DNA from: Candidatus Colenecus caballi
GTDB lineage: Bacteria > Bacteroidota > Bacteroidia > Bacteroidales > Bacteroidaceae
DNA length: 33,113 bases
Direction of reading: 5' to 3'
NCBI GenBank assembly: GCA_018065615.1
Contig: JAGHSY010000076.1
Span: 1-33,113 of the forward strand
Shown here: one piece after another, positions 258-30,448 of the stretch
How the letters are laid out: every line of letters starts with the position of its first letter
Position numbering within the stretch: the first letter of the stretch is position 1
Made by a program: the position numbers and the translations under genes
The notes under the pieces: model-generated
The model's input: only the letters and a program-made list of their open reading frames with translations
What the model was told of the DNA's origin: nothing
Database searches by the model: none

Positions 258-404
258 TTTTGCCAACTACGGTAACACCAAGTGCCCATATAAGGCTTGT
301 GAATGGGACGAACGTTACTGAAAGGCTTCAAAAACGTGGTCCGGTAACAGTGACTGGCCCCACAAACGTTATGAGGACGGCCACTGTTACCATGTTTGGC
401 GAAA
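258..404. repeat. Palindromic intergenic element with four GTAAC/GTTAC boxes, copy 1
   Basis: A 147-bp element begins TTTTGCCAA (258-266) and ends with its near-perfect inverted copy TTGGCGAAA (396-404). Inside are GTAAC (272-276), GTTAC (314-318), GTAAC (344-348) and GTTAC (386-390). Outer boxes can pair with each other, as can inner ones, giving a long stem with an internal hairpin. A second copy lies at 25589-25736 with box offsets matching to within one base. It starts 25 bases past the lacZ-like stop and has no open reading frame of its own. It could be a MITE-like element or a structured 3'-end RNA. Confidence 0.7.
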
Positions 405-16714: not shown

Positions 16715-16740
16715 CCTCTGCCTGTTTCAGTCCCGCTGTC

Positions 16741-17325
16741 TTGGAACAAATTTGAGGCATTTTTTGTTCAACGATTGCGGTCACGCTGTCAGGCATGTGC
16801 CCCAGAAGCCGGATCAGCGGGAATTTCATGGGGAAAGTGATACGCAGGTTCGAACCATTTGTGTATCAAGGTTTTCCCTAGTCACGGGAGACCGGAAAGG
16901 GTACCATATATATCCGCCTTGCCGTCACAGGCGTCTGCCCGCCCGGTTAAAGAAATCCTGGAACACAAAATGCCTGTATTTTGTTCCAGGATTCCGGTTT
17001 CCGAAATGGTACCCCGTCCACAAGGCTTCTGAGGCACATGGCTTCTGTGTAACCGTATTCCATGAACAAATATCGGTGCTTTTTTGTTCAAGGATTGCTT
17101 TGGGGACACCGACTTTGGAAATGGTACCCCACTCACAAGGCTCCTGAGGCACATGGCTTCTGCGCAACCATATTCCATGAACAAATAACGGTACCTTTTT
17201 GTTCATGGATTGCTTTGGGGACACCGACTTTGGAAATGACACCTCGCTCACAAGGCTTCTGAGGCACATGGATTCTGCGTAGCAGTATTCCTTGAACAAA
17301 TTACGGCTCTTTTTTGTTCATGGAT
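16741..17325. repeat. Tandem hairpin array, about 115-bp period
   Basis: This fills most of the 713-base convergent gap between the acyltransferase and the second LtaS-like gene. Five hairpins of the type CCATGAACAAA-n-TTTGTTCATGG occur at 16741-16771, 16954-16993, 17058-17095, 17173-17209 and 17288-17324. The last three are exactly 115 bases apart. Between them is a conserved body containing TGGAAATGGTACCCC and ACAAGGCTTCTGAGGCACAT; GGTACC recurs at 16900, 17008 and 17123. The second interval is 12 bases shorter, and the leftmost part is degenerate and includes an inverted copy of the core (16794-16810). No gene is seen: the period is not a multiple of three, so frames do not repeat. Confidence 0.85.
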
Positions 17326-17415
17326 TGGCTGCAGCCGGTCTGTTCAGGCTATTGCCATTGCTTAAGGACACCATAATCAGGAGAGTGTCCGGTAAAGTTG
17401 TTAAACAATACCCGG

Positions 17416-25588: not shown

Positions 25589-25736
25589 TTTTGCCAAGTT
25601 CAGTAACACATGGTGACCTCACAAGGCTTGTGCATGGTATGAGTGTTACTGAAACCTGTTTTTGAGACCTTTCAGTAACAATGACATGCCCTAGATGATG
25701 TTCTGGAGCAGGTCACTGTTACCGGCTTTGGCAAAA
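25589..25736. repeat. Palindromic intergenic element with four GTAAC/GTTAC boxes, copy 2
   Basis: The 148-bp element has perfect 9-bp inverted ends, TTTTGCCAA (25589-25597) and TTGGCAAAA (25728-25736). Boxes are GTAAC 25603-25607, GTTAC 25645-25649, GTAAC 25675-25679 and GTTAC 25718-25722. The inner pair forms a perfect 11-bp hairpin (TGTTACTGAAA / TTTCAGTAACA). GTGACC (25613-25618) and GGTCAC (25711-25716) extend the outer stem. It lies six bases past the flippase stop, between convergent genes. It is homologous to 258-404. Confidence 0.8.
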
Positions 25737-30137: not shown

Positions 30138-30308
30138 ATCTGTTCCGAGCCGTATTCATATTACGGTTAAAGAATCTCATTCACATGGCGATGTATGTTG
30201 TTCCGGAAGCGCACAGACAATGAGGAGCAGTAAGTTCAATGCACGAAACGGACGAGAAGTGCATCGAAATGTCCGGTCTGAGGAACTGCACCATACTAAA
30301 GCACGATA

Positions 30309-30326
30309 TGCCTCAGGAGCCTTGTG
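30309..30326 (-). repeat. Core of the tandem hairpin array, isolated inverted copy
   Basis: On the minus strand this 18-base segment is CACAAGGCTCCTGAGGCA, identical to 17134-17151 in the tandem array 13 kb away. Similarity weakens outside the core but includes an ATGG some ten bases before it, so the two sites share an element family. Confidence 0.65.
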
Positions 30327-30363
30327 GAGCAGGTGCCCATTTTATGTGCCGGGACTGAGCCAA

Positions 30364-30448
30364 TTCTGTGCCTCAGGAAATGCCCGAGCCAGAAGCTATT
30401 TCTGCGTATAAACAGCGTTTTGCCTCGGACATTTGCTGAGGCACAGAA
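30364..30448. repeat. Near-perfect 25-bp-arm palindrome (MITE/REP-like)
   Basis: Arms 30364-30388 and 30424-30448 pair at 23 of 25 positions (TTCTGTGCCTCAG-AAATG-CCGAG and its complement) with two isolated mismatches. The 35-base loop contains a smaller CAGAA/TTCTG hairpin. The arm tip TGCCTCAGGA matches the core of the tandem array. It ends 36 bases before the stop of the minus-strand gene at 30484. Confidence 0.8.

Follow-up and report, generated by a model that had tools for sequence, protein, structure and literature searches.

Two four-box palindromes in the window

The DNA analysed here (the window: the whole 33,113-nucleotide stretch of contig JAGHSY010000076.1 from Candidatus Colenecus caballi) carries two copies of a palindromic element in which inverted ends enclose four short boxes, the word GTAAC alternating with its inverse GTTAC. 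Copy 1 has on one side a secDF-like gene, so named on inspection of its first residues by eye, and on the other a GH2 beta-galactosidase gene; copy 2 lies between convergent HIT-domain and Polysacc_synt genes. The parts of the two copies are as follows.

258..404, + strand: four-box element copy 1 (GTAAC word), 147 bp
258..266, + strand: copy 1 left end TTTTGCCAA (conserved TTYYGCCAA)
272..276, + strand: copy 1 box 1, GTAAC
314..318, - strand: copy 1 box 2, GTTAC (inverted word)
344..348, + strand: copy 1 box 3, GTAAC
386..390, - strand: copy 1 box 4, GTTAC (inverted word)
396..404, - strand: copy 1 right end TTGGCGAAA
25589..25736, + strand: four-box element copy 2, 148 bp
25589..25597, + strand: copy 2 left end TTTTGCCAA
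25603..25607, + strand: copy 2 box 1, GTAAC
25645..25649, - strand: copy 2 box 2, GTTAC
25675..25679, + strand: copy 2 box 3, GTAAC
25718..25722, - strand: copy 2 box 4, GTTAC
25728..25736, - strand: copy 2 right end TTGGCAAAA

On re-reading, the positions of the copies, their inverted ends and the box offsets (GTAAC at 14 and 86 in both copies, GTTAC at 56 and 128 in copy 1 and at 56 and 129 in copy 2) agreed with a preliminary description of this DNA, as did the placement of both copies just past a stop codon, 24 bp from that of the GH2 gene for copy 1 and 6 bp from that of the Polysacc_synt gene for copy 2. The right end of copy 1 reads GCGAAA, and the GCAAAA given for it earlier was wrong.

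Dispersed repeat sets in the genome and the genus

The preliminary description had called the element two-copy, which is valid for the window only, because the GTAAC type has nine full copies of 147 or 148 bp in the genome (G000; 2.25 Mb in 125 contigs). A three-box pattern gave 18 matches there, corresponding to nine sites each found on both strands, and the reversed pattern that served as a control gave 3 and 1. The search of the whole genome and of related genomes that had been proposed was carried out with a sequence-only model and found further copies in both; the model recovered the nine copies at E ≤ 1.6e-29, but these were its training set, and it added weaker copies at 5e-10 and 9e-8 and weaker full-length relatives carrying other box words. 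More copies being present in genome and genus, the earlier suggestion of a MITE-like family, non-autonomous and mobile in nature, was borne out. When the nine GTAAC copies were aligned, 54 of 152 columns were invariant and the ends were sharp at TTYYGCCAA and TTGGCRRAA.

A GTGAC/GAGTC type occupies 13 places in the same genome, 11 of them full elements of 147 bp and one of 148 bp, while the thirteenth is a partial copy or a chance match (the reversed GTGAC pattern gave 3 and 3 matches). The GGTACC type comprises 9 distinct elements, all of exactly 129 bp, and its reversed pattern gave 0 matches. Since each word has its own dispersed set, we count three gene/word/length sets in this one genome, the genes being those described in the next section.

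When the GTAAC model was run on 61 genomes, 37 of the genus including our own and 24 of other genera, 11 matched, all within the genus. Copy numbers were modest, from 9 to about 25 places, the 39 matches in G019 falling at 25 places by a count made by eye. The box words met included GTAAC, GTGAC, GGTACC, GAGAAAC and GTCCCAC. Elements also occurred in genus genomes in which the gene described below was not found (for example G002, G008, G009, G021 and G030), perhaps through incomplete assembly or gene loss.

The gene between the elements

Elsewhere in the genome, GTAAC elements stand on both sides of a gene (G000:C10:26044-26967) for a protein of about 300 aa. Its two paralogues, on C54 (57% identity) and C23 (51%), each lie between elements built on the same plan but with GTGAC/GAGTC or GGTACC boxes; the three paralogous genes in the genome correspond to the three words, one gene to each repeat type, which is the arrangement expected of RAYTs.

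A homologue search of the 37 genus genomes found the gene in 13, in some of them as distant homologues only. All 15 close genus homologues (39% identity or more) had elements at most 0.9 kb away on both sides, as called by script or by eye, one of the elements beside the G011 homologue being 0.66 kb off; pairs of elements were spaced 0.2-2 kb around a single gene. Three of the 15 (G027, G006 and G014:C1) were interrupted by stops. The gene is under purifying selection, with a median dN/dS of 0.076 in the 18 usable pairs among 85 close pairs.

A scan of a contig collection yielded 83 relatives of the gene, of which 80 loci were kept. The record titles named Bacteroidales, Bacteroidaceae, Bacteroidia and Candidatus genera (Cryptobacteroides, Egerieousia), many of them from ruminant and horse gut. 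In an even sample of the phylum (395 genomes) the gene was found in our own genome only, and in a sample of the order (393 genomes) in three, our own included.

Beside the gene, elements defined by GCCAA...TTGGC ends and complementary boxes gave 68 matches in 138 kb, distributed over 42 loci, as against 10 in 234 kb farther away and 2 in 415 kb of shuffled sequence; 59 of the 68 measured 147 or 148 bp, the permitted range being 134-155. A scan blind to the ends, for a 7-mer followed by its inverse, itself and its inverse again, was positive for 96 of 160 flanks, which belong to 61 of the 80 loci (block-shuffled sequence, 8 of 320 flanks), leaving 19 loci at which the pattern was not found. The spacing was near 47/25/47 in 86 of these 96 matches, from 54 loci, and different in the other 10. 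Nine canonical RAYTs of the genus, taken as a control, gave 2 positive flanks out of 18, and in these two the spacing was different. Some flanks that a single-word script had missed, at L084, L089, L091, L092 and L098 and on one side of L090 and L093, proved by eye to hold elements with mixed or decayed words. Anchored at their centres, 122 non-redundant halves fell into a common frame of a TTYCGCCAAA end, word, arm, inverted word and GGCC-rich centre. One group of the palindromes that lie between genes in gut Bacteroidales MAGs is thus explained.

Identity of the protein

Residues H53, H55, Y111 and Q115 were invariant in all 73 homologues of our protein alignment (A3), which covers 73 of the 80 loci, L176 and L182 having been left out for frame breaks and five others for being shorter than 290 aa. 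The loci had been found via two conserved peptide stretches, and each matched at least one of them; however, the HUH search stretch is unmatched in 50 of the 73 and the Y stretch in 6, and both motifs are kept in all. Because the motifs are thus retained in members unselected on each stretch, their invariance is not an artefact of the search. A search that used no motif patterns had turned up 12 genus homologues, and all 12 carry the HxH and Y/Q motifs as well. Between the two histidines stands P in 58 of the 73 and L, I, Y, G or A in the other 15; a proline at this place is unusual for HUH proteins. As judged from these motifs, the protein appears to possess the HUH motif and single catalytic tyrosine (Y1) of a RAYT.

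Family models did not name it. At E ≤ 0.1, neither our own protein nor either of two genus homologues matched any Pfam or NCBIfam model, the RAYT model NF047646 (REP_Tyr_transpos) matched 0 of 73 members at E ≤ 1, and PF01797 (Y1_Tnp) matched 2 of 73 with a best E of 0.18, while unrelated Pfam families scored equally well or better (Rrn11, for example, with 4 members and a best value of 9e-4). We judged the scattered weak matches of the 73 members to unrelated Pfam and NCBIfam families to be chance.

Profile comparison with two bridging groups of distant homologues gave probabilities of 99.8% (E 2.7e-28) and 98.7% (E 2.2e-16). Four of five bridging proteins match NCBIfam REP_Tyr_transpos at 4.9e-5 to 6.5e-3, under its curated cut-off, and one bridging group matched the canonical RAYTs of the genus at 96% profile probability. 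All nine of the canonical RAYTs used match REP_Tyr_transpos, and the one example shown in full is also under the cut-off. Compared directly with canonical RAYTs, the family profile gave a weak result (probability 6.6%, E 0.0055), in an alignment in which HxH (H-V-H in canonical RAYTs), the tyrosine and the C-terminal end line up. On profile evidence, then, the protein is linked to RAYTs through its bridging homologues, and we file it as RAYT-like rather than as a RAYT member because PF01797 and NF047646 are not matched.

Searches of solved structures and of PHROGs returned weak matches. The two structures matched by the transposase profile were judged chance; bridging profile A5 gave five weak matches, all named transposase (E 0.13-0.26), bridging profile A6 gave three unrelated ones, and the canonical RAYT profile found 4er8 (TnpA_REP) at E 0.25, after two receptor sequences. 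In PHROGs, one bridging protein matched a transposase family at 0.051, and a match of the transposase to a virion protein at 0.009 was set aside as chance.

Word and protein go together

At 30 of the 32 loci with well-spaced matches on both sides, the words of the two sides had a run of at least 6 bases in common; between loci the figure was 12%. For the 49 loci with a well-spaced word and a row in the protein alignment, protein identity correlated with word similarity (Mantel r 0.57), a value that 0 of 2000 permutations reached (maximum 0.18), although these permutations leave common descent in, and common descent contributes partly to the correlation. Protein pairs of more than 80% identity had the word in common in 10 of 10 cases, those of 70-80% in 76% of 62, and those below 55% in about 6%.

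The 86 well-spaced matches contain 45 different 7-mers, which perhaps come down to 25-30 word types when phase-shifted forms are joined by eye; single-linkage clustering of the words was set aside, having chained 42 of the 49 loci. In a quick tree, in which 30 of 70 inner branches were well supported and 17 were drawn open, neighbouring proteins had neighbouring words, one clade comprising CAGTCCAC, CAGTGAGC, CAGTGAAC and CAGTTGAC.

We tentatively propose, with a little less than even confidence, that the family is an unclassified Y1 HUH branch, here in gut-type Bacteroidales MAGs only, in which a word of 7-9 nt present four times has been repeatedly re-specified while the length and spacing of the element stayed constant. 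If this were true, a recognition code, whether protein-DNA or of a guide-type DNA-DNA kind, could be readable from sequence, and a change of word would imply the replacement of entire genome-wide repeat sets.

Location and turnover

Of the 21 copies of types 1 and 2 in our own genome, 5 were spanned by an ORF of at least 130 aa, as against 411 of 630 random placements, and the five spanning ORFs are all short, ending within 241 bp. The elements of these two types are extragenic, as REPINs are, partial overlaps being uncounted. For 16 of the 21 copies, the nearest stop of an ORF of at least 100 aa running toward the copy was within 140 bp, a count taken without a control.

The element was absent from the site of copy 2 in all nine genus members that have the flanking genes within 1 kb, five of which were read and four scripted (G024, G004, G027 and G007). 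Among those read, G014 has a 56-bp gap at the site, the genes abut in G034, G036 and G002, and in G022 a short gap contains a palindrome of another kind. Similarly, an element present at MAG locus L167 is missing from the related locus L157. Such presence/absence differences at orthologous sites show turnover of the elements; exact insertion joints were not readable because the flanks are too diverged, nor were target duplications, which were sought by eye.

The palindrome in the G022 gap (L273, G022:C2) bears GGGACGGTTC and is of canonical-RAYT type, with no four-box element. At L106 and L141, partial copies (GCCAAAGTGTCCC...) lie beside a full element, and the two loci differ by 1.1 kb bounded by elements, which hints at recombination between copies.

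Pairing and predicted fold

The preliminary description had also taken the pairing kept between diverged copies as a sign of selection on an RNA or cruciform helix. Pairing is kept because the four boxes are one word copied in alternating orientation, and 26 elements in which two variants of the word can be distinguished allowed the coupling of the boxes to be compared with shuffling. The inner boxes 2 and 3 carried the same variant in 11 of the 26, where 13.1 are expected, and the outer boxes 1 and 4 in 25 (expected 23.2); for boxes 3 and 4 the count was 18 (15.6), and for boxes 1 and 2 it was 14 (13.0). These counts, 11 of 26 for boxes 2 and 3 and 25 of 26 for boxes 1 and 4, make the single box look like one more copy of a word that is recognised, and less like one side of a helix kept by selection. 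The notion of guarded helices went unsupported for the inner pair in this test, and the lack of pairwise co-variation between the inner boxes weakens the RNA-structure reading. The covariation check that had been suggested pointed the same way, with an RNAalifold covariation term of only -0.04 on the nine copies.

Folded as single-stranded DNA, 110 of 111 elements were predicted to be more than 2 SD better than their shuffles (mean z -6.0; 20 shuffles per element, the 111 elements being partly preselected by complementary ends). In the predicted folds box 1 pairs with box 4 and box 2 with box 3, and the arms contain small hairpins. The elements accordingly resemble REPINs in being inverted doublets with a spacer whose palindromic halves are predicted, in this end-preselected set, to fold as a long hairpin. 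Predicted RNA folds of both strands of the two window copies gave z of -2.5 to -5.8. With the box pairing predicted for the DNA of these end-preselected elements, a folded single strand may be what the transposase acts on.

Interpretation and alternatives

Very probably, the element is a REPIN-like repeat, itself non-autonomous and belonging to a divergent RAYT-like (Y1 HUH) transposase, the gene for which stands elsewhere in the genome between two copies. Along a route taken from RAYT and IS200 biochemistry, the palindrome would become single-stranded, as on the lagging-strand template, and fold; the transposase would recognise its cognate word, offered in four copies of alternating orientation at fixed spacing; its tyrosine would cut near the conserved TTYYGCCAA ends; and the element would be joined into new extragenic sites. 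TnpA_REP cuts and rejoins its own single-stranded REP, according to the available text of PMC6006769 and PMC8266576. By analogy, the present protein probably acts on the folded single strand, recognising its word there and moving the element; word binding, cleavage and single-strand transfer are all ascribed to it on that footing. What the data show directly is that element and gene are linked, that each gene has one word, that the geometry is fixed, that the elements are dispersed and differ in presence between species, and that the gene is under purifying selection.

One could instead regard the element as a structured RNA or an RNA-processing signal, such as a stabiliser of mRNA 3' ends, with helices under selection and no relation to the gene. 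Strong predicted folding as both RNA and DNA and the frequent position of copies close behind stop codons would suit such a role; however, the element is palindromic on both strands, its boxes copy one word that tracks the subfamily of the adjacent gene, the inner boxes are uncoupled where two variants mix, Rfam has no match within the window and the covariation term is near zero, so that we hold this to be very improbable. A protein that has been domesticated, serving as a sequence-specific binder or genome organiser with the elements as its binding sites, would account for the purifying selection, for the single gene per word in our own genome and for the modest copy numbers. It is nevertheless an unlikely explanation, given that presence and absence at orthologous sites amount to turnover and that the catalytic residues are invariant.

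Conserved inverted ends, a length of about 147 bp and a dispersed, extragenic distribution are what a MITE of a classical DDE transposase with terminal inverted repeats would also display, the HUH-like gene then being a bystander. That 15 of 15 close genus homologues stand between such elements, each with its own word, makes a bystander role highly improbable; the neighbours of the copies were read by eye. The pairing of copies 0.2-2 kb apart around one gene recalls integron attC-like sites for the recombination of gene cassettes, but the box spacing of about 47/25/47 is unlike that of attC. The integron-cassette idea was dropped because the gene that recurs between the pairs is a transposase homologue, and we give it almost no credence.

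Relation to known systems

RAYTs are the best-known domesticated bacterial transposases. As a small inverted extragenic palindrome of moderate copy number, the element is like the REPINs and BIMEs that accompany RAYTs (E. coli TnpA_REP, Pseudomonas SBW25 GI-GIII, RAYT groups 2 and 3), and REPIN/RAYT systems similarly have cognate pairs of word and gene with the gene kept by selection. Unlike REPINs, it has four words rather than two REPs and a fixed length of 147-148 or 129 bp; unlike canonical REPs, it has no GTAG/GTGG foot among its box words; and unlike known RAYTs, the protein has about 300 aa, with H-[P/other]-H and Y-x3-Q-[PA]-TKD, and is missed by the known models. The best reading is that a new RAYT-like branch has non-autonomous elements of a REPIN-like kind, whose geometry is fixed while their recognition word changes. 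Dozens of species carry the gene, with legibly differing words in an otherwise constant element, which constitutes a natural series for the study of specificity change, and the family is a RAYT-like branch left unnamed by the Pfam and NCBIfam models searched.

In the REPtron, too, as described in the available text of PMC3116915 and PMC8049555, each repeat type goes with one Y1 HUH gene that has its repeats on both sides. Within the TnpA_Y1 classification, as far as the available text of PMC6006769 describes it, the family resembles subclass 2.6 (RAYT group 5), found in Bacteroidetes, with 'atypical secondary structures' lacking GT[AG]G in the flanks and with copies elsewhere, and it resembles class 3 in its Y...Q motif. 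The motifs described in that text set the new protein apart from both: subclass 2.6 has NH[LIV]H, YIH[QN]NP and a length of 179, and class 3, mainly from Planctomycetes, Acidobacteria and Proteobacteria, has NHVH and YV[VI][AENY]EQ, whereas the new protein mostly has [ST]HPH and Y[TC][IV]xQ[PA]TKD in about 300 aa. TIRYTs and TIRtrons, in the available text of PMC3733652, are likewise RAYT-like genes flanked by inverted non-GTAG palindromes with moderately abundant dispersed copies; unlike the present elements, their TIRs are varied, some with GGGGWSAS. Palindromes of a GGGG-AC type, resembling these GGGGWSAS repeats of TIRYTs, lie upstream and downstream of the canonical RAYTs of the genus, not of the new family. 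Our literature search, with thin coverage of subscription journals and preprints, found no paper on the gene or the element.

Other repeats and palindromes

The canonical RAYTs of the genus (L202-L215; PF01797/NF047646) have palindromes of the GGGGACGGTTC or GGGGTCAGACCCC type on both sides, and our own genome has one PF01797 match, at C75:13189. Among distant homologues of the transposase, L096 (G031:C1) and L104 (G014:C4) are flanked by repeated GTGTGCGCACAC palindromes, while L097 (G001:C12) and L099 (G019:C59) lie inside arrays of short repeats, not four-box elements, with GGTACGGAATGCGGTTTG units and TCCTCA...GCGCT units.

The window itself holds further repeats. Its region 16739-17333 includes a tandem array (16989-17333) of three 115-nt units with a different palindrome, TCCATGAACAAA...TTTGTTCATGGA, which also contains GGTACC-like and CTCACAAGGCTCCTGAG stretches. 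A palindromic stretch at 30306-30448 carries CTGAGGCACAGAA, has a CACAAGGCTCCTGAGGCACAT-like stretch in common with the array at 16989-17333, and perhaps represents another repeat family.
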